A stretch of 34,025 nt of DNA, from the NCBI GenBank assembly GCA_013288285.1, contig JABDCE010000022.1, forward strand, positions 2,864 to 36,888, in the 5' to 3' direction. The position numbers and the translations under genes are program-made. A model generated the notes under the pieces. It had not been told where the DNA came from. It was given only the letters and a program-made list of their open reading frames with translations, and made no database searches. This document shows positions 3,862-29,387 of this stretch, in pieces (the stretch's first letter is position 1; every line of letters begins with the position of its first letter). The DNA comes from Bacteroidota bacterium. Lineage in GTDB: Bacteria; Bacteroidota; Bacteroidia; Chitinophagales; Chitinophagaceae.

Positions 3862-6800
3862 ATGAAAAAATTGGCACTCCTATCTATCCTTATCGTCCTG
3901 GCCTTCAGTACGTCTGCCCAGGTTTCATTCTCAGTCACCACTATTCCCTGCAATCACAATGGGGTACTGAGTAGCGATTTTTCTTCTGCCAGTCCTCCAC
4001 TCATACCTCCGGTAGTAGTAAGTTATACACTCACCGGTACTCCTGGTAGCACCGTAACGCATACAGGCGTCAGTGGTCTTACAGATTTGCTCACCAGCTA
4101 TTCCGGTGGCCCACTATCGGTATTAGCGTCTGACGCATTTGGAAACTTTGCATATGGCTCTTTTGCCGGAATGCCTGTATTTGGTTACAACTATATACCT
4201 AAGTCTGTGCTTTGTCCCGGAGTAAGTACTGATAGTGTGGATGTTTTTACAGGTGGTACAGCACCTTATACTTATCAATGGATAGATCTGACCACACGGA
4301 CTACTGTTGGTACAAGCAATCCCATATCTCTCGCTCCTGGCACATATGGCGTTGAGATCACTGACGCACTCGGTTGTGTGTATGGAGCTATGGATGAGCA
4401 TGACGCTTCTATCATACCTTATGTACCTTCTTATTCCGTTACCACTACCTCTACAGTGGCAAATTGCTCCAATGGCACTGCTTCTGTATCCGTTTCCCCC
4501 GGTGCGGTGTTACCGGTTAGTTATATTTGGTCTACAGGTGCTACTACGCCCGCTATTCTGGGTTTGGTTACAGGTAGTTATAACATTACCGTTAGCGATG
4601 CCATTGGTTGTACCGCATCAGCTTCAGCATATGTGCCGCAGGCCGTTACCATTGCAGCGCCTGTTACGCCTACGCCCGCTACCTGCACTTCTAACAACGG
4701 TGCAATCATAGCGTTCGGTAGCGGCGGCCTTCCTCCGTACGGATATCTTTGGAGCAATGGCGCTACTACACAATCTCAAACAGGCCTTTCCGCAGGTTAT
4801 TATACAGTGACAGTTACTGATGCGAATGGTTGTGTGGGGTCGGGCGCCGGTGCTGTTGGCGTTTCTACGCCCATCACAGTTACTTATTCTACCACTCCCA
4901 CTTTATGTACTTCACCTACCGGTTCAGCTACTCTGAGTATCGCTGGCGGCACACCTCCATACTCTACTATGTGGTACACAACTCCTGCGCAGACCGGTAT
5001 TACAGCCGTTAACCTCACTCAAGGCAATTTCAGCTTCCTGGTTGCTGATGCAGTAGGTTGTATTCGCTCCGGTGCCGCTACTGTTCCGCCTATCGATGTG
5101 ATAGTTGCATCCTTCTCGTCAGTTGCTCCTATCTGCACACTGTCTACAGGTAGCATAACGGTTACCGCCTCCAGTGGTGTTGCTCCTTATACGTACGCCT
5201 GGAGCAATGGTGCTACCACATCATCTATCAGCGGCGTGCCATCAAATTGGTATCACGTCACCGTCACTGATGTCAATAATTGTACTGCGACTTATTCTGA
5301 ATATTTGCCTTATACATCAACCTTGTCTGTAGGCATGGTTGAAACTCCGGCAACCTGTCTTTTTGTAAGCGATGGTGTTCTTACTGCCGTGCCTTATGGC
5401 GGTACCACACCTTATTACTATGCATGGACCGGCGGCGGATCTACCAGCACTATTACCGGGCTTCCTGCCGGCATCCCATATACGGTCATTGTTACAGATG
5501 CGCTTGGTTGCCAGGCCTCAAGTTCTGTAACAATGGGTGCTGACACACTCAGCTCATGCTACTGTACTATCTCCGGCACGGTTTATAATGACGCGAATGG
5601 TAACTGTACCCAGGATCCGGGCGAAGCAGGTATTCCTAATATAAAGATCAATATCAGTGGCCGTGGTTACACCTTTACAGATGCGTCAGGCAATTACTCT
5701 TACAAAGTGCCCTCAGGCACTTATATCGTATCCGAAAATGTCCTGGCTTTCTATCCGTTGTCTCCATGCCAGTCCAATTATATTACTTTTACATCTTCAT
5801 CAGCTACAGGTTGTGTGTTGCCGGTCAATTTTGCTAATACTATGGATACCATCCACGATCTGCATATTTGCACATGGGACTATAACCTTCCGGTGCCAGG
5901 GCATATATATAACCAGGTTACTATCATAACTAACAATGGTACGGTACCTGAACCCGCTGTTTACACTGGCTATGCACCGGATGGCCAGTTCTTCGCACCC
6001 TTGTCGTTCGTTCCTTCCGGTTACTTCCTTGGCGGCTCTAATTTTTATAGTACGGTAGATAGCTTCCCGCTGTTGACGCCCGGAGCCCAGCAGGCTTTCT
6101 ATATGGCGTACAATGTACCTACCGATATCCCATTGGGTACCAACGTTATATTTATAGATACTATAACTGCCGATTCTCCTGCTACTAACTGGCTGCTCGA
6201 CTACTCGCCATGGAACAACACCCGATATTTCACTACCACTGTGGTAGGGCCGTTCGATCCGAATTTTAAAGAGGTTTATCCTAAAGGTGTAGGTAGCGCC
6301 GGCCTGATTACTGCCGCAGATACTATTCTCGAATATATGGTACACTTCCAGAACACAGGCACTTACCAGGCAGAGAATATACGCGTGGTAGATACGCTCG
6401 ATGACAATCTCGACTGGACGTCGCTCGTACCTATTTCGGGCCAATGCCAGGTCACTGTCGATCAGTATGCCGGTAAAAAGATAGCCACATTTATGTTCAA
6501 TGAGATCAATCTGCCTCCAGCATCTTCCGAGCCGATCACCAGTAACGCCATGTTCAGCTACAGCATCAAAACATTGCCTGGGTTGCCGGTGGGTACGCAA
6601 TTTAAGAACAGCGCTTCTATCTATTTCGATTATAATGCACCGGTCAAGACGAACCAAACCCTCAATACCCTGGGCTCTTTACCGGAGCATACCGGCAATG
6701 TTACTGCTCGGCAGAATGTTAATTCATTTTCTGTTTACCCCAACCCTGCAAGCACCCGTTTTACCGCTATCATCAATAGCGATATTGCTGGTAATGCAAA

Positions 6801-6975
6801 CATGAATATTACTGATGTAACCGGTAAGATACTTATGAACACCAAGGTGAATGTTCAGAAAGGCCGCCAGTCAGTTTCCAGTGATATCAGCCAGCTTACT
6901 CCTGGTGTTTATTTTGTAAACTTCACTCAGAATGGCAAGTCGCAGATTCAAAAGCTGGTGGTAATAAAACAATAA
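3862..6975 (+). CDS. Large T9SS-secreted surface protein with SprB repeats
   Basis: The 1037-residue protein begins with a signal peptide ending FSTSAQ near residue 20. About residues 110-560 hold six SprB-like repeats, each with a GG..PY.Y.W(S)NGATT core and a closing V(T)VTDA.GC. A CNA-B/SdrD-like unit follows at about 568-650 (CTISGTVYNDANGNCTQDPG). The DUF7619-like/DUF11-type domain at about 790-950 contains EYMVHFQNTGTY and IYFDYNAPVKTN. The last 80 residues are a T9SS type A sorting domain (FSVYPNPASTRF ... GVYFVNF ... KLVVIKQ). Known relatives are cell-surface adhesins, some tied to gliding. It is exported by Sec, then T9SS, and the C-terminal domain is removed on anchoring. It has no operon partner. 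Confidence 0.93.
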   Translation: MKKLALLSILIVLAFSTSAQVSFSVTTIPCNHNGVLSSDFSSASPPLIPPVVVSYTLTGTPGSTVTHTGVSGLTDLLTSYSGGPLSVLASDAFGNFAYGSFAGMPVFGYNYIPKSVLCPGVSTDSVDVFTGGTAPYTYQWIDLTTRTTVGTSNPISLAPGTYGVEITDALGCVYGAMDEHDASIIPYVPSYSVTTTSTVANCSNGTASVSVSPGAVLPVSYIWSTGATTPAILGLVTGSYNITVSDAIGCTASASAYVPQAVTIAAPVTPTPATCTSNNGAIIAFGSGGLPPYGYLWSNGATTQSQTGLSAGYYTVTVTDANGCVGSGAGAVGVSTPITVTYSTTPTLCTSPTGSATLSIAGGTPPYSTMWYTTPAQTGITAVNLTQGNFSFLVADAVGCIRSGAATVPPIDVIVASFSSVAPICTLSTGSITVTASSGVAPYTYAWSNGATTSSISGVPSNWYHVTVTDVNNCTATYSEYLPYTSTLSVGMVETPATCLFVSDGVLTAVPYGGTTPYYYAWTGGGSTSTITGLPAGIPYTVIVTDALGCQASSSVTMGADTLSSCYCTISGTVYNDANGNCTQDPGEAGIPNIKINISGRGYTFTDASGNYSYKVPSGTYIVSENVLAFYPLSPCQSNYITFTSSSATGCVLPVNFANTMDTIHDLHICTWDYNLPVPGHIYNQVTIITNNGTVPEPAVYTGYAPDGQFFAPLSFVPSGYFLGGSNFYSTVDSFPLLTPGAQQAFYMAYNVPTDIPLGTNVIFIDTITADSPATNWLLDYSPWNNTRYFTTTVVGPFDPNFKEVYPKGVGSAGLITAADTILEYMVHFQNTGTYQAENIRVVDTLDDNLDWTSLVPISGQCQVTVDQYAGKKIATFMFNEINLPPASSEPITSNAMFSYSIKTLPGLPVGTQFKNSASIYFDYNAPVKTNQTLNTLGSLPEHTGNVTARQNVNSFSVYPNPASTRFTAIINSDIAGNANMNITDVTGKILMNTKVNVQKGRQSVSSDISQLTPGVYFVNFTQNGKSQIQKLVVIKQ

Positions 6976-23948: not shown

Positions 23949-23980
23949 ATGTATAGAGCGGCTTTGGCCGCTCTATACAT
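23949..23980. terminator. 14-bp perfect hairpin between convergent genes
   Basis: ATGTATAGAGCGGC (23949-23962), loop TTTG, then GCCGCTCTATACAT (23967-23980) form a perfect 14-bp stem. The right arm abuts the stop codon of the TonB receptor (23981-23983 on the minus strand). It would stop transcription from both sides, and the T-rich stretch before it (23929-23938) is on the plus strand. A bidirectional terminator is the simplest reading. Confidence 0.75.
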
Positions 23981-25912
23981 TTATAGGAGCGTCACTTTTA
24001 TACCAGCCAACCAGTTGATCCCCGGCATAGGGCGGAAGGCAACTACCTGGTAATGCTGGTTCCAGATATTGTTGCATTGGGCCGTAAACTGAAACGGATG
24101 GTTGCGGAGAGGGGTATTGTACATGAGTTGCAGATTGCCTGTCTGATAGGGCAACAGGTATTCCGATTCATCGGTGGTGATGAACCTGTAGCCGGTGTAA
24201 GTCTGGTTGTAATTTGCCGATAATCTTTTATAGTTAAAGCCCACGTTTGCCTGGCCGTTGTAACGCGGGGCATAGGGGATCTGCTTGCCCACGCTGCCAT
24301 CATTTTGTATATAGCTGGCTACAGTAGTTGCCAATACGTAGGAGGTGTTGACGCCGATATGCAGCTTCCAATTGCCGATAGTATATACGATGTTATTCTC
24401 GGTCTCCACACCGCGGCTGTGTACTTCGGCAATATTATGTGGCGTCCAGATAGTGCCACCGAGCCATATTATCCAGTCGTGTATATCACGGGTAAACACA
24501 GAAAGATCGTGGTAGAATGTAAAATTCGAGTGCCCGAGCTTTACAGTATATCCTGCATCCTCATTCCACCCACGCTCCGGTTTCAGGCTGGTATTGCCAC
24601 CGGGGAAATAGTATAGTTCATTTAGGGTAGGGGTGCGGTAGGTGCGTTGTGCATTAGCCCGTAGCTGCAGCCATTGGGTAAGAGTAAAAGATGCGTCGGC
24701 GCCGGGTAAAAGTATTTTGTGCGTATTGATGTCTTCACCTCTTGCGTTCACAGCTATGTTCAACCGATTACTAATAAGCCCGATGTTGTATGCAGCCGCA
24801 ATGGCCAATCTGGTTTGCTGCTCAGTGTCTGTGCCCGGAGTGGGTATCCAGGATACCTGCAGTGGTAGGAATACAAGTAACTGGCCGTATTGAAAAAATT
24901 GTTTCTTCCACCCCAGTTCCTGGTAATATTGGTAAACTGTACTATTGGCATTGATCTCTATAGTATCGTCCCGGTAATGCTGCTGGTCGCGGATAAGGGA
25001 CGACTTCGCATACCATGTATTTGTGCCCGAATGTTTATTCCCGTCGGCAAGCAACCGGAGCGAACCATCGGTTTGTTGCTTATCGGAGTAGGTTTCGAAT
25101 AACGCGGGTGGAACCTCCCTGTCATATTGCTGGTACCATGCAGTAAGGCTGATGGTATTTTGGGTGTTTATTTTATAAGCGGCGTTTAGTAATGCTGCCG
25201 CACTTTTCAGGTGGTCGTTAGGCATCCGTTCCTGACTGCCTGCACTGTTAATATATTTGAAATCGTTGGTGGCCGTTTGTGTAAATACGTTTGCTGAAAA
25301 ATACCAGCGCTTGCCGGATATGGATCCTTTGAGGCTGCCCAGGTATTGGCCGAAACTGCCGGCGCCTACGCCCACTGATAAGGAATGTTTGCCGGAATCA
25401 AAGCCTGGCTTGTCTTGTTCCAGCAGCAATGCCCCTCCTACGTTTCCGCTGCCCCATAGTGCGGCAGATCCGCCGTAGACTATATTTACTTTGTCTATCA
25501 GTGCTACCGGCAGGGTAGATACATCAGCGATGCCGAGGGAGGCATTCTGAATGGGAATGCCATTCCATAGCACGGCACTCTGCGCTGCTGAAGAGCCTCT
25601 GAAATTAAGCGTGGCCAATCCGTTGAATCCGTATGACTTTATAAAGACCGGTACCTGCTGAGATAAAAGATTGGCCATGCTCTGGAGTTGGTATTGCTGA
25701 AGGGTGGCGCTGTCTATTGATCTTATTTTTTGTCCCGGAGAGAAGTCATTCACTTTTGTATCTGCAGACGGGTTTTGTTTAGCATGCACACGCACTTCTT
25801 TTAGCGTATCATTCAGGTGCTGGGCAACCGATATGTTCGAACAGGCAAGCAAGATCACAGCGGACAGTAATATAACTGGCAAGAGTAATCCGGTGTTTTT
25901 GTTCTTAAACAT
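23981..25912 (-). CDS. btuB: TonB-dependent outer-membrane receptor, BtuB-like (corrinoid uptake)
   Basis: The 643-residue protein has a signal peptide (to about SVAQ, residue 30), a TonB-box-like DTLKEVRVHA near residue 36, and a plug at about 65-170 (LNFRGSSAAQSAVLWNGIPIQN, GSGNVGGALLLEQD). A barrel of about 22 strands ends in the typical aromatic-basic C-terminus (INWLAGIKVTLL). No carboxypeptidase-like N-terminal domain is present, unlike SusC types, which favours the BtuB/vitamin group. It is the fourth and last gene of the operon controlled by the cobalamin riboswitch at about 29131-29305, and follows the beta-propeller lipoprotein after 18 bases. The btuB assignment rests on that regulation and the family shape; direct corrinoid specificity is inferred. 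Confidence 0.85.
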   Translation of the reverse strand: MFKNKNTGLLLPVILLSAVILLACSNISVAQHLNDTLKEVRVHAKQNPSADTKVNDFSPGQKIRSIDSATLQQYQLQSMANLLSQQVPVFIKSYGFNGLATLNFRGSSAAQSAVLWNGIPIQNASLGIADVSTLPVALIDKVNIVYGGSAALWGSGNVGGALLLEQDKPGFDSGKHSLSVGVGAGSFGQYLGSLKGSISGKRWYFSANVFTQTATNDFKYINSAGSQERMPNDHLKSAAALLNAAYKINTQNTISLTAWYQQYDREVPPALFETYSDKQQTDGSLRLLADGNKHSGTNTWYAKSSLIRDQQHYRDDTIEINANSTVYQYYQELGWKKQFFQYGQLLVFLPLQVSWIPTPGTDTEQQTRLAIAAAYNIGLISNRLNIAVNARGEDINTHKILLPGADASFTLTQWLQLRANAQRTYRTPTLNELYYFPGGNTSLKPERGWNEDAGYTVKLGHSNFTFYHDLSVFTRDIHDWIIWLGGTIWTPHNIAEVHSRGVETENNIVYTIGNWKLHIGVNTSYVLATTVASYIQNDGSVGKQIPYAPRYNGQANVGFNYKRLSANYNQTYTGYRFITTDESEYLLPYQTGNLQLMYNTPLRNHPFQFTAQCNNIWNQHYQVVAFRPMPGINWLAGIKVTLL

Positions 25913-25930
25913 TACTGTGCCAACTGTGTT

Positions 25931-27001
25931 TTAATTGAAATAAAAATGTCCTGGCCCGAGACCGACGTTAAAGCTATCTGTTTTAGTGCCGTCCTGCCTG
26001 AATATGTATACGATGCCTTTCTGGATGAAGCCTTTTGGGTCTCCCACATAAGCATAGCCAGTGGCAGGATCGATCCCCAATGCCCAGAAATATTGATATT
26101 GTTTTGCCAGAACAAATGCTTGTGCAGGCAATGATACGTCTGTTATGCCCATCCGGTAAATACCGTTATTAGCAGTACCGTTATAATAATTGACCTCAAT
26201 AAAATACAGCGTGTCTTTTGTGTTGTTGAAAACAGGTTTCAGGGCATCAGCGCTTGCTGGAAATTGCCACGATGCCAGTATTTCGCCCGTCAGCGTGTCG
26301 AGCCGTGTCCAGGTTGCGGTCTTACCCTCGGTCTGGTTGCCGGCCAATACCCAAAGCGTACCTTCTTTATCGAGCAAGGGAGACTGCGGCGCATAACCTG
26401 CTATTTTTATGGCCTGTTCTATTTTGTCTGTTTGTGTATTTACTTTGAAAACAGTATTACAGGCAGTGTCCCATGTACAAATGATCGCGGTGTTGTTATA
26501 ACCGCACATTTCTTCCGTATTCTGGTTAGGAAACTCTATGGTACCTGTTACAGTATATGTCTGCAGGTCGATAATGTACACTTTGTTATTGTACAGGGAA
26601 GACACGTAAGCTTTTGTGGGGCTCACCTGTAGCATATAACGTGGTGTGGGGATAGAGATAGTGGCGATTGTTTTTCGACTGGTGGTATCGATGACCACTA
26701 CCTTGTTGGAGTTGTTGATACAAAGAAAGAAATTTGCCCCGACACGGGTCATGCTCTGAAATACATCGCCCAATGGCTGATTATTTGTCGCAGTATACAG
26801 ATCGCCATATACGCTTTTCTTAACGGGATCATATAGATATAGTGTAGCGTCTCCGTTGCCAAAATTGCCTTCGCAGACCACATATACATCGTGCGGGCTA
26901 CCGGGCGCAATAGAACTGGCTGGCTGTGGTTTATCTTTTACGCAAGATACCAGCAGGCAGCATAATGCAAATGTCAGCGCTTTGATATCTTTTCTACCCA
27001 T
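25931..27001 (-). CDS. btuG: BtuG-like beta-propeller surface lipoprotein (DUF5074/YncE type)
   Basis: A 356-residue lipoprotein (lipobox LLVSC, C19-20). The mature N-terminus reads CVKDKPQP, with a K-D pair close to lipoprotein surface-export signals described in Bacteroidota. The mature part is a repeated-blade propeller: HDVYVVCEGNFGNGDATLYLYDP, NKVVVIDTTSRKTIATISIPTP, YMLQVSPTKAYVSSLYNNKVYIIDLQ, ending LGPGHFYFN. Its length and opening motif match Bacteroides BtuG, a seven-bladed protein that binds cobalamin tightly and caps BtuB. Its start overlaps the stop of the preceding gene by 28 bases, implying translational coupling. The BtuG role is inferred from fold plus riboswitch context. Confidence 0.82.
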   Translation of the reverse strand: MGRKDIKALTFALCCLLVSCVKDKPQPASSIAPGSPHDVYVVCEGNFGNGDATLYLYDPVKKSVYGDLYTATNNQPLGDVFQSMTRVGANFFLCINNSNKVVVIDTTSRKTIATISIPTPRYMLQVSPTKAYVSSLYNNKVYIIDLQTYTVTGTIEFPNQNTEEMCGYNNTAIICTWDTACNTVFKVNTQTDKIEQAIKIAGYAPQSPLLDKEGTLWVLAGNQTEGKTATWTRLDTLTGEILASWQFPASADALKPVFNNTKDTLYFIEVNYYNGTANNGIYRMGITDVSLPAQAFVLAKQYQYFWALGIDPATGYAYVGDPKGFIQKGIVYIFRQDGTKTDSFNVGLGPGHFYFN

Positions 27002-27975
27002 TTATTTCCATTGGCGTCACTCATCTCCAGGTAATACATGCCTGCAGGTAGTTCGCCGACAGAAATGCTACTTGTGCTTTGTGACAATGTATTTTGTTTG
27101 ACCACTTGTCCGGTAATAGCAGTGAGTCTTACCTGCATACCCGGGTTGCCACCTGTAACGGAGATAAAAAGCTTGTCTGTTGTGGGGTTAGGGTATGCTT
27201 TTACAGACAGGCCATAACCAACAATATTTATACCGGAATTAGTTGTTTGATGTATAGCGCCCACAGCGTCCAGGTCGAACCCACCGGTAGCAAACTGGGT
27301 TGGGAACGGATCGTTGATCACACTGCCCGTAATATCGTGAGATGCATGTATGCCTATAGTGCCTATCACATCTACCAGTCGAACGCTGGTGATATTAGTT
27401 ATGTCAAGGCCCGGTGAGTCGGCTAATTCCTGTAGGTCGAACGGAGTGCCGTAACCGGCGATGTACTTTCCGCCGAGGTTATTTACACGGTTGGCATACA
27501 TATATACACCGGCTCCCGGTATCTGTGTATTTATCTGGGTCAGCGAATTGCACGGGAACCGCACATAGCGCGAGCCATCAGAACTAACCTCTACGAATGC
27601 AAGTTCCAGGAAAGCCTGTGAATCATTGACCGGGTTGGGGAAGCCATTTTCAAACACAGCAAAGTCAGGTCCTGGACCATCATAAAGCGGGCTTGCGAAT
27701 GTAAGCGTTGCCACGCCGCTATCGCCTAAACTTACCACATAGCGGTCTGGTGCGCCTGCTCCAAAACTATCAACACCCGATGTTACATAGCCGAGGGCGG
27801 TTGAATCTATATTCAGATATCCCCGTGCTACCACGCAACCTGTGGCCCAGCCTGTGAAGACACTACTTGTGCCGCTAATTGCATCATTGCCCGGCACACC
27901 CACCTGTGGCAAATATTGCGCACTGGCGGGTGTGAGACAGATGATGGTGATAAGAAAAATAATAAATACTTTCAT
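26974..27975 (-). CDS. T9SS-sorted surface protein of the cobalamin operon
   Basis: The 333-residue protein has a signal peptide (LTPASA-Q at about residue 20). A beta-rich domain at about 20-245 contains GPGPDFAVFENGF, FVEVSSDGSRYVRFPCNS, GKYIAGYGTPFDLQEL, VRLVDVIGTIG and GGFDLDAVGAI. A T9SS type A sorting domain fills the last 80 residues (VKAYPNPTTDKLFISV ... GMYYLEM). The middle domain is a widespread secreted family without an assigned activity; similar domains occur in B12-related loci and in PEP-CTERM proteins. Only two bases separate it from the DUF4465 gene upstream. A corrinoid-binding or capture role is inferred from the operon. Confidence 0.85.
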   Translation of the reverse strand: MKVFIIFLITIICLTPASAQYLPQVGVPGNDAISGTSSVFTGWATGCVVARGYLNIDSTALGYVTSGVDSFGAGAPDRYVVSLGDSGVATLTFASPLYDGPGPDFAVFENGFPNPVNDSQAFLELAFVEVSSDGSRYVRFPCNSLTQINTQIPGAGVYMYANRVNNLGGKYIAGYGTPFDLQELADSPGLDITNITSVRLVDVIGTIGIHASHDITGSVINDPFPTQFATGGFDLDAVGAIHQTTNSGINIVGYGLSVKAYPNPTTDKLFISVTGGNPGMQVRLTAITGQVVKQNTLSQSTSSISVGELPAGMYYLEMSDANGNKWVEKISKR

Positions 27976-27977
27976 GA

Positions 27978-28982
27978 TCAGTTCTTAATGAATCTTGACG
28001 TAGCAATGCCGTTGCTACCGGATAACTTAAGTATATAGTTACCTGGCTGCAAACCAGATACATTGATCTCTGTATGGGCAGTAATGTTGTTAACTGTATA
28101 TACTGTATGGCCCGTAATATCTACAATGCTGATTTGGCCAATGGTGTTATCGGCAAGGTCCACATATAATGCGTTGGTTGCAGGAGTGGGATATACTTTT
28201 GCAACAGCAGCCACAGTATTATTAACGGATAAGCTGGATACCGGTAGTGGTTCGTCAGTTGTAAAGTTATCTATGCAGAAATAGGCGGGCGTGTTCATGC
28301 CATACATGCCATTATCGCTTGATGTTAACGATAGCTGCACGCTGTCTACATTTCCTAATGGTGTAAGGTCTACCCATTTCCAGGTATTAAGGATGAAGTT
28401 TTTGGTCGGGTCGGGGAACAGGAAATCGGCCAGGTAAATGCCAACCGTAGCGGGCTGCAGCACGCCGCCGGAATATCCCTGTACACTCAGCAGGTACCAG
28501 TCGCCGTTACCGAATTTTTTTCCAAAAAAATCGCCATCGCGCATGCTATTATAGGCATAGGTGCTGTTAGTGGCATAAAAGCCTTTTACCTTTTTACCAA
28601 TCGCAGACCCTGTAAGTTGTATTCTTACATTGTTTTCAAAAGTCACCGGGTCGCTACAGAAAACGGCCACGTAATTCGGTGATCCGCCATATCCGATCGC
28701 GGTTTTTGCCGAATATTCATTGGTATAACCGCTGGTGATACTGTCCGTCATGTTTGAGTATGCGAACCCTGTGCTCCAGATGCCACCGTAAGAAGTATCG
28801 TAGATGCAAGGGAAGTGGGCATGCCCGTCATTAAAGCCTACATCCGAAAGCGGAGCAGAGTAGTTGACATAAAAAGTATCGGCATGTGCGAGGTGCATAG
28901 TGTCGAACGTGGCAACTGTCTGTGCCTTGATAGCCGTTGTTCCGAGGACAAGGGCTGAGAATAGTAATGTAAATCTGCGCAT
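27978..28982 (-). CDS. DUF4465 protein with T9SS sorting domain
   Basis: The open frame begins at 29006, but MRRFTLLFSALVLG at 28982 gives a proper signal peptide (cleavage near IKA-Q). The DUF4465 domain spans most of the protein, with signatures WSTGFAYSNMTD, PNYVAVFCSD, KVKGFYATNSTYAYNSMRDGDFFGKKF, WYLLSVQGY, VGIYLADF, WKWVDLTPLG and PAYFCIDNF. The last 75 residues are a T9SS sorting domain (AKVYPTPATNALYVDL ... GNYILKL). I recall DUF4465-type proteins in Bacteroides cobalamin loci, some described as corrinoid-binding BtuH, but cannot verify that here. It is the first gene after the cobalamin riboswitch. Confidence 0.88.
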   Translation of the reverse strand: MRRFTLLFSALVLGTTAIKAQTVATFDTMHLAHADTFYVNYSAPLSDVGFNDGHAHFPCIYDTSYGGIWSTGFAYSNMTDSITSGYTNEYSAKTAIGYGGSPNYVAVFCSDPVTFENNVRIQLTGSAIGKKVKGFYATNSTYAYNSMRDGDFFGKKFGNGDWYLLSVQGYSGGVLQPATVGIYLADFLFPDPTKNFILNTWKWVDLTPLGNVDSVQLSLTSSDNGMYGMNTPAYFCIDNFTTDEPLPVSSLSVNNTVAAVAKVYPTPATNALYVDLADNTIGQISIVDITGHTVYTVNNITAHTEINVSGLQPGNYILKLSGSNGIATSRFIKN

Positions 28983-29130
28983 ATATAAATTGGTTTTTAA
29001 AAACAATTTTTAGCAGCAGCAATTGGGGTAAAAAATCAGATACAGAAGAAACCGGAGTTTGAATCCAATTTCATCTTACCTGTGCCTTTGGTCCCGAAAG
29101 CAGCGATAAGTATTCCGGATTAACCGGTTG

Positions 29131-29305
29131 CAAAGGCAGGTCTTCTGACTTACTCCACTTTTTCGCGGCCTTCCCACCCACGATAATCGGGGCAGTGGCT
29201 AAACAGGTAGCAAAAAAGCATTTAGCGGAGCTAACAGCATCGGGTAATGTCCAGGATTCACACCTGGTTCCCTTTTCATCCCGGCCGAAACCGGGAACCT
29301 TTGTT
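29131..29305 (-). promoter_or_regulatory. Cobalamin (AdoCbl-type) riboswitch
   Basis: Read on the minus strand, the elements come in order: GGTTCCCGG near 29300, GGGAACCAGGTGTGAATCC (the conserved core segment), GCTGTTAGC, the B12 box GCCACTG near 29190, GGGAAGGCCGCG, and the closing AGTCAGAAGACCTGCC at about 29136-29151. This order and these sequences are diagnostic. It lies about 150 bases before the DUF4465 start and should repress the four-gene operon when corrinoid is plentiful. Confidence 0.95.
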
Positions 29306-29387
29306 AGGGCAAAAGTATAAAGTAATTATCGAAATGGAAAAATTTCTTTTAAAACCAGCGCGCAGAGGGGCTGTGGATGGGCGAAAA

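Follow-up and report, generated by a model that had tools for sequence, protein, structure and literature searches.

A recurrent riboswitch-headed variant of the Bacteroides Btu operon with T9SS-tailed J and H proteins

The closest described relatives of the locus analysed here are the Btu systems for vitamin B12 uptake of Bacteroides. Locus 2 of Bacteroides thetaiotaomicron (btuJ2-btuH2-btuL-btuG2-btuB2) is riboswitch-regulated, and its J, H, L and G products are all predicted lipoproteins according to its description (PMC12751083), which also names MNTPSY as the major binding motif. DUF4465 proteins constitute the BtuJ family, and B12 binding has been reported for eight of its members (PMC13398666, 2026). 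BtuH2 binds B12 by means of its BtuH-type domain (PMC8941943). In the BtuBG transporter a BtuG-type lipoprotein adjoins the TonB-dependent receptor BtuB. The terms T9SS, type IX and sorting are absent from the DUF4465 paper (PMC13398666), and our searches of open-access papers met no B12 capture system delivered by type IX secretion (T9SS).

The window, by which we mean the whole analysed stretch of 34,025 nucleotides from a member of the Chitinophagaceae (Bacteroidota; contig JABDCE010000022.1), holds a cobalamin riboswitch followed on the minus strand by four genes in the order J (DUF4465), H, G (DUF5074) and B (TonB receptor) (Table 1). The aptamer matches RF00174 at 29317-29118 (-) with 110.9 bits (E 3.3e-27; gathering threshold of the covariance model 31.5 bits) and is the single RF00174 element found in the source genome, which is 57.7% complete. 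It lies 135 nt from the first ATG (28982), and by their coordinates J and H are 2 nt apart, H and G overlap by 28 nt and G and B are separated by 18 nt. An earlier note on this DNA had proposed a cobalamin riboswitch heading four packed genes, namely a DUF4465 protein and a second protein, both with T9SS tails, a DUF5074 propeller lipoprotein and a TonB receptor. Each of these is confirmed; the span given for them (23981-29305) covers the same elements, except that the riboswitch reaches slightly beyond it, to 29317. Directly past the stop codon of B, between convergent genes, stands an inverted repeat, which is absent from the predicted terminator-like sites. The four products are homologous to proteins of B12 loci, H remotely. 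As in B. thetaiotaomicron locus 2, DUF4465, BtuH-like, BtuG and BtuB proteins are encoded in similar order under a riboswitch; unlike there, J and H end in T9SS tails, and a predicted lipobox is seen in G only. The riboswitch-headed operon with T9SS-tailed J and H represents a variation on the Btu system of Bacteroides that recurs across loci.

Table 1. Coordinates of the operon and its features in the window
Feature	Position	Strand	Basis
Cobalamin riboswitch aptamer, operon head	29118..29317	-	RF00174, model 1-189/189
J gene, 334 aa, signal peptide (by eye), DUF4465, T9SS type A tail	27978..28982	-	Pfam, NCBIfam
DUF4465 domain, J residues 65-240	28263..28790	-	PF14717
HI loop MNTPAYF of predicted B12 site, J residues 229-235, Tyr234	28278..28298	-	alignment to 9fct
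T9SS type A sorting domain of J, residues 263-334	27981..28196	-	TIGR04183
H gene, 333 aa, signal peptide (by eye), BtuH-type domain, T9SS type A tail	26974..27975	-	TIGR04183, family alignments
BtuH-type domain, H residues 20-243, no Pfam family	27247..27918	-	profile and fold search
T9SS type A sorting domain of H, residues 261-332	26980..27195	-	TIGR04183, structure model
G gene, 356 aa BtuG-type beta-propeller lipoprotein	25931..27001	-	DUF5074, E 7.7e-17
Predicted lipobox cysteine (LVSC), G residue 20	26942..26944	-	translation by eye and loose pattern match
B gene, 643 aa BtuB-type TonB-dependent receptor	23981..25912	-	PF00593 and PF07715 (barrel, plug)
Perfect 13-bp inverted repeat, 4-nt loop; possible terminator	23950..23979	.	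read from sequence

J matches PF14717 with E 4.1e-49 (167.7 bits; cut-off 25 bits) and is alignable to the DUF4465 chains 4jqr, 9hmu, 9qpm and 9fct. Domain and corrin-contacting HI loop are common to J and the BtuJ family, and the conserved tyrosine of this loop is present, MNTPAYF standing opposite MNTPSYF of 9fct (BtuJ1); across loci it is replaced by phenylalanine in 11 of 55 J domains. From these likenesses we infer that J is a BtuJ-type protein, predicted to bind corrinoids. It differs from the family by its C-terminal tail, which matches TIGR04183 (E 7.7e-14, 51.4 bits; cut-off 23) and PF18962 (E 1.2e-11). A search for an N-terminal lipid anchor in J found a signal region without cysteine.

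The tail of H is likewise recognised by TIGR04183 (E 8.1e-11, 41.8 bits; cut-off 23 bits), and the full-length model resembles the T9SS CTD 8qb1 (TMt 0.76, rmsd 2.3). Its main domain matched no family in Pfam. A profile (A2) built from one of two family alignments (A1, A2) reached residues 427-497 of the BtuG1-BtuH chain 8blw_B (E 3.8e-5, domain i-E 1.4e-4, 66 columns), the only solved chain under E 0.001, and this chain carries a BtuH-like domain. Two structure models of H have pLDDT 93.3 and 97.0. When the domain alone was submitted to Foldseek, 8blw_B ranked fourth (prob 1.00, TMq 0.50, E 2.3e-3) amid discoidin-like folds, in an alignment of rmsd 10.3 and about 11% identity for which the aligned part of the chain is not displayed; BtuH2 (7BIZ) is absent from the best 50 of 531 matches. 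A fold search with full-length H returned mainly two-sandwich glycosidases and was used for the tail only. The main domain of H thus looks like a remote BtuH relative by profile and, more weakly, by fold. With the BtuH family it has in common the likeness to the BtuH-like part of BtuG1 and the B12-locus context; it is set apart by its low identity, by leaving no space for the N-terminal Ig-like/PKD domains and by a T9SS tail in place of the lipid anchor. The earlier note had taken the two T9SS-tailed proteins for counterparts of BtuG and BtuH and suggested comparing them with Btu loci. That comparison supports a BtuH-like second protein; the first is a BtuJ and neither BtuG nor BtuH.

By this kinship H may bind corrinoids as well. 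It is unlikely, to our mind, that H is instead a non-binding partner, serving in docking, in stabilising BtuG-BtuB or in a vesicle-related role such as that reported for BtuL, with J the sole T9SS-delivered binder. The remoteness of the similarity to BtuH would agree with such a role, as would the many loci in which H is found without J and the case of BtuL itself, likewise encoded in a B12 operon, which showed no binding (PMC12751083). On the other hand, the one solved chain reached by the H profile under E 0.001 bears the very type of domain by which BtuH2 binds B12 (PMC8941943), and J-H fusions (L086, L119 and L120; Pfam DUF4465 in all three, tail in L086 and L119 only) suggest a joint role in capture.

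G and B resemble the BtuBG transporter by homology. G aligns with the BtuG chain 8p97_B (E 2.1e-41), and its LVSC motif at residue 20 is a predicted lipobox. B aligns with the BtuB chain 8p98_A (E 3.3e-54) and matches TIGR01779 (TonB-B12) with E 2.9e-26 and 92.2 bits, below the equivalog cut-off of 599.7.

The earlier note had further suggested that riboswitches and sorting-domain proteins should co-occur repeatedly, and starting from the H-type protein the survey was positive. Of 25 phylum-sample loci, 23 have BtuB and/or BtuG in the neighbourhood of H. The named H loci number 79, L082 having been left out of the original 80 (an opposite-strand frame masked its H gene). A riboswitch stands upstream of the H-type gene in 68 of them, 62 by a B12-box pattern and six more by Rfam, one of these six at only 39.2 bits; the pattern recovers 11 of 14 Rfam riboswitches and made no false call in 11 negative loci. 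The arrangement riboswitch, tailed J, tailed H and BtuG occurs in the window and 29 further named loci, and BtuB comes next, completing the four genes, in the window and 20 of these 29; Taibaiella soli (L073) is a named relative with the same operon. The capture module differs from locus to locus: besides DUF4465 there are DUF4430-type proteins, second propellers and J-H fusions. DUF4465 is rare in the phylum sample (6 of 198 genomes, 5 above the cut-off; G000, G017, G064 and G158 were examined further), and none was detected in 98 genomes of the order of G010. In G017 (L033), H is separated from riboswitch, BtuG and BtuB.

Across loci, tails and lipid anchors are distributed unevenly. T9SS tails are present on the product of the first gene past the riboswitch in 56 of 62 loci, on J in 54 of 55 and on H in 77 of the 79 named loci, the other two H being cut by the contig end; among phylum-sample H proteins, 8 of 25 are without recognisable tail. 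As the tail profiles were made from H tails and their matches, divergent tails may be missed. A 686-aa protein of L049 is tailed in one count and untailed in the riboswitch-ranked count described below. Of 105 propellers from all loci, 83 have the lipobox pattern only, 14 a tail only, none both and 8 neither. The single tailless J (L125) is lipoprotein-like by pattern and has no NCBIfam tail match; the pattern is loose and also matches five J proteins, all tailed, and 12 H proteins (11 tailed, L072 contig-cut), and we take the matches on tailed proteins as chance. The division of labour looks systematic in this operon type: free capture proteins would leave through T9SS, and the lid, which has to clamp the transporter, would remain a lipoprotein.

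Tails of this kind are common in the source genome (111 matches, at 57.7% completeness), so that two of them alone are unremarkable and the conserved arrangement is the remarkable part. They could then be incidental and of no special meaning for B12 uptake. Among 60 SprA-positive genomes chosen by riboswitch score, only seven riboswitch operons hold a tailed protein, and of their frames of at least 150 aa 9 of 144 are tailed, vs 6 of 209 background frames (p 0.10); the T9SS form of the B12 operon is therefore confined to a minority and is not significantly enriched overall. Yet the window and 20 named loci retain both tails in the identical four-gene order, no propeller combines a tail with the lipobox pattern (0 of 105), and the one J that lacks a tail is lipoprotein-like. 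Incidental tails are, in our judgement, very improbable.

We consider it quite probable that this is a corrinoid uptake operon whose J and H are T9SS-exported capture proteins feeding a lipid-anchored BtuG on BtuB. Given the riboswitch, the operon is expected to be active at low B12 and would be expressed once the vitamin becomes scarce. J and H would cross the inner membrane via their signal peptides and the outer membrane by T9SS via their C-terminal tails, and would then be surface-attached or released. There they would trap scarce corrinoids and pass them to BtuG, the lipid-anchored lid on BtuB; BtuB, powered by TonB, would then import them to supply MetH and methylmalonyl-CoA mutase. Type A tails are compatible with anchoring as well as with release. 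That they lead to release, making J and H diffusible B12 carriers and not surface-bound receptors, is possible, if doubtful: none of the sequence features tested separates the two fates, and released carriers would be public goods. A precedent for distant capture is the vesicle-borne BtuJ of B. thetaiotaomicron, the vesicles being likened to siderophores by the authors of that work (PMC12751083). Only tentatively do we suggest that some T9SS-bearing Bacteroidota release dedicated B12-binding "corrinophores" that wander outside the cell and return to lipid-anchored BtuG on BtuB, the capture module (DUF4465, BtuH-type, DUF4430-type, tailed propeller or a fusion) being swappable and the export tag kept. 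If true, T9SS would be a route for vitamin scavenging, and BtuJ and BtuH kinds would extend beyond gut lipoproteins into many other Bacteroidota. The rule would be that capture proteins may travel while the transporter lid must remain anchored. B12 is shared and contested in many communities, and the reach of capture proteins affects who obtains it.

Concerning the export machinery, the source genome (57.7% complete) holds a SprA fragment (E 3.9e-41); a PorU candidate in it was rejected as a tail-only match below the cut-off. SprA is present in 26 of 26 H-positive genomes, the source genome counted among them, vs 128 of 172 others (Fisher p 0.0009), an association on which we do not rely since all but one of the 20 SprA-negative genomes listed come from a single family, f16. 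Contig C70 carries candidate MetH-like and mutase-like frames.

The riboswitch, the only cobalamin riboswitch detected in its genome (2.57 Mb, 57.7% complete), is followed by four genes, J, H, G and B, all on the minus strand. Between J and H lie 2 nt, the H and G frames share 28 nt and a further 18 nt separate G from B, a tight spacing which makes a single J-H-G-B transcript most likely.

Features of the probable corrinoid-uptake operon and its surroundings
Feature	Position	Strand	Score
Cobalamin riboswitch	29317-29118	minus	110.9 bits
J gene (DUF4465, T9SS type A tail)	27978-28982	minus	
H gene (BtuH-type domain, T9SS tail)	26974-27975	minus	
G gene (BtuG-type propeller)	25931-27001	minus	
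B gene (BtuB-type receptor)	23981-25912	minus	
Perfect 13-bp inverted repeat	directly after B stop codon		

The Bacteroidota -7 promoter consensus is TAnnTTTG. It is matched by TACTTTTG at 29310-29317, the very first bases of the aptamer; the transcript may therefore begin slightly inside the aptamer as annotated. A 1037-aa repeat protein (3862-6975), apparently unrelated to the operon, has its own T9SS tail (contig C22, 9596-9826).

We consider it quite probable that this is a corrinoid-uptake operon with T9SS-exported J and H capture proteins feeding a BtuG-BtuB pair. Passages of PMC10404256 present BtuG as a lid over BtuB, and BtuH as a surface binder; BtuJ is, in passages of PMC12751083, a very tight binder borne on vesicles. 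The reading of J and H as capture proteins rests on analogy to this system. T9SS would export both proteins, which would bind corrinoids and pass them to BtuG-BtuB; if released rather than attached, they would be protein corrinophores. The titles and abstract openings listed by searches of the open-access literature yielded no T9SS-delivered B12 capture system, and none is described in the sections seen of PMC9723704, PMC12578637, PMC9430724, PMC8986121 and PMC5395568.

Solved DUF4465 proteins including 9fct align with the DUF4465 domain of J, and the MNTPAYF loop is intact. According to parts of PMC13398666, eight distant DUF4465 members bind B12 and 97% of homologs keep the HI-loop tyrosine; the text of that paper contains no mention of T9SS, type IX or sorting. 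The tyrosine is kept in J of the window. Among 55 J domains it is replaced by phenylalanine in 11 (L069, L070, L072, L073, L074, L081, L094, L095, L119, L130, L132) and by threonine in that of L086. A T9SS tail is present on 54 of the 55 J proteins, and the remaining one (L125) reads as a lipoprotein.

Besides its T9SS tail, H consists of a main domain without Pfam family: no Pfam match was found at E 1, and 15 aligned relatives gave weak and scattered matches (best E 0.016). When PDB was searched with the 16-member H profile, the one chain below E 0.001 was 8blw_B (E 3.8e-5; domain i-E 1.4e-4; residues 427-497). This chain is BtuG1. Its propeller aligns with G of the window over 38-371, and part of PMC10404256 states that an extension at the C-terminus of BtuG1 is homologous to BtuH2. 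A structure model of the H domain alone (pLDDT 97.0, pTM 0.93) led Foldseek to 8blw_B at rank 4 (probability 1.00, E 2.3e-3, rmsd 10.3, aligned part of the chain not given), with the highest TMq, 0.50, among the 50 matches listed; its neighbours in the list were discoidin-like folds. Because profile search and Foldseek both reach 8blw_B, H is taken as a remote relative of BtuH, in which, following passages of PMC8941943, a C-terminal globular domain binds B12. The NCBIfam model LIC_13355 lipoprotein also hits all 16 members of the H alignment (best E 2.9e-12; 17 to 45.6 bits among the matches listed, below the model cut-off of 120). We take this model to be of Leptospira origin, hinting that the H family (27247-27918 and relatives) extends to lipid-anchored spirochaete proteins.

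The H-domain alignment, searched against a set of one genome per species, gave at least 586 pattern matches, of which at least 542 were confirmed. The best 80 were kept, a set biased to close relatives of H; all but L082, where the H frame was missed, yielded an H frame, leaving 79 loci. A same-strand riboswitch lies upstream of H in 68 of the 79 loci, 62 found by B12-box pattern and six by Rfam (L087, L092, L097, L099, L131 and, at 39.2 bits only, L137). Rfam found none upstream of H in L093, L102, L105, L114, L117, L126 and L127; the pattern found none in L062, L090, L091 and L121, where at most about 320 nt of sequence precede H. H bears a T9SS tail in 77 loci and is truncated at a contig end in the other two (L072, L095). 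Among the 62 loci called by pattern, 56 have a gene for a T9SS-tailed protein directly behind the riboswitch. The order riboswitch, tailed J, tailed H and G is shared by the window with 29 named loci; in 20 of these, as in the window, B follows. Record titles name Chitinophagaceae, Taibaiella, Flavipsychrobacter and Sphingobacteriales among others, many just Bacteroidetes.

G and B match BtuG and BtuB structures, respectively, and G carries a lipobox, read by eye and by pattern. Among 105 propellers from all loci, the lipobox pattern alone occurs in 83, a tail alone in 14, neither in eight and both in none. The pattern is loose and also hits 11 H and 5 J proteins that are tailed; the BtuG partner thus appears to be mostly a lipoprotein. 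The 14 tailed BtuG-like propellers (L038, L040, L042, L044, L047, L050, L054, L087, L103, L109, L115, L122, L123, L136) show no lipobox match and stand in B12 loci, most of which hold a second, lipobox-bearing propeller.

The slot after the riboswitch in H-containing loci is occupied by varied, mostly T9SS-tailed modules: DUF4465, a second propeller or another domain. The last is found in seven Bacteroidales loci whose record titles mostly point to rumen or gut; here a tailed protein of another family takes the place of J (L098, L101, L104, L108, L110, L134) or is fused to H (L133). That of L104 matches DUF4430 (E 1.3e-7), which part of PMC4350170 mentions at the C-terminus of animal transcobalamins. 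A further B12 capture family is possible in these seven loci. By our own profile, L086, L119 and L120 encode tailed J-H fusions; Pfam recognises DUF4465 in each of the three, and the tail in L086 and L119. L086 is titled Azovibrio restrictus, a proteobacterium, yet its operon is Bacteroidota-type; the record is perhaps a mis-binned or mis-named MAG. Given these modules and the tail and lipobox counts on J and the propellers, capture proteins seem able to switch their delivery route.

The genome of the window encodes 111 T9SS tails and a fragment of the T9SS component SprA; no convincing match to another component, PorU, was found, an absence which says little at 57.7% completeness. Contig C70 holds frames which we take to be MetH-like and methylmalonyl-CoA-mutase-like.

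Less biased samples were also drawn. Whole H matched in 63 of 198 phylum genomes, many via the tail alone, and its domain in at least 25 besides the window's genome. Of these 25 loci, 23 have BtuB and/or BtuG near H and 14 a riboswitch. A tail was recognised on 17 of the 25 H proteins; NCBIfam likewise found none on the other eight. In a riboswitch-first sample (one riboswitch per genome, ordered by score), 50 of 60 operons from SprA-positive genomes contain BtuB or BtuG and seven a T9SS-tailed protein. The usual riboswitch operon of this sample therefore carries BtuB, either alone or together with BtuG, and operons of the T9SS form are in the minority. No tail occurred in 16 SprA-negative operons, all of one family, one stretch being 972 bases and two yielding no operon. 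When single frames (150 aa or longer) were counted, tails were not significantly enriched (9/144 in riboswitch operons versus 6/209 background, Fisher p 0.10). The repeated co-occurrence of riboswitches and sorting-domain proteins that the earlier note would count as support is seen when the search starts from H; starting from riboswitches, there is no significant general enrichment. The per-frame count slightly favours the view that the tails on J and H are incidental to B12 uptake, which we still regard as very improbable, and slightly weakens T9SS-dependent capture. Genome G017 splits J and H, with J alone beneath a riboswitch (L148) and H elsewhere without one (L033); another of its riboswitches (L193) heads a 589-aa T9SS-tailed protein of no assigned family.
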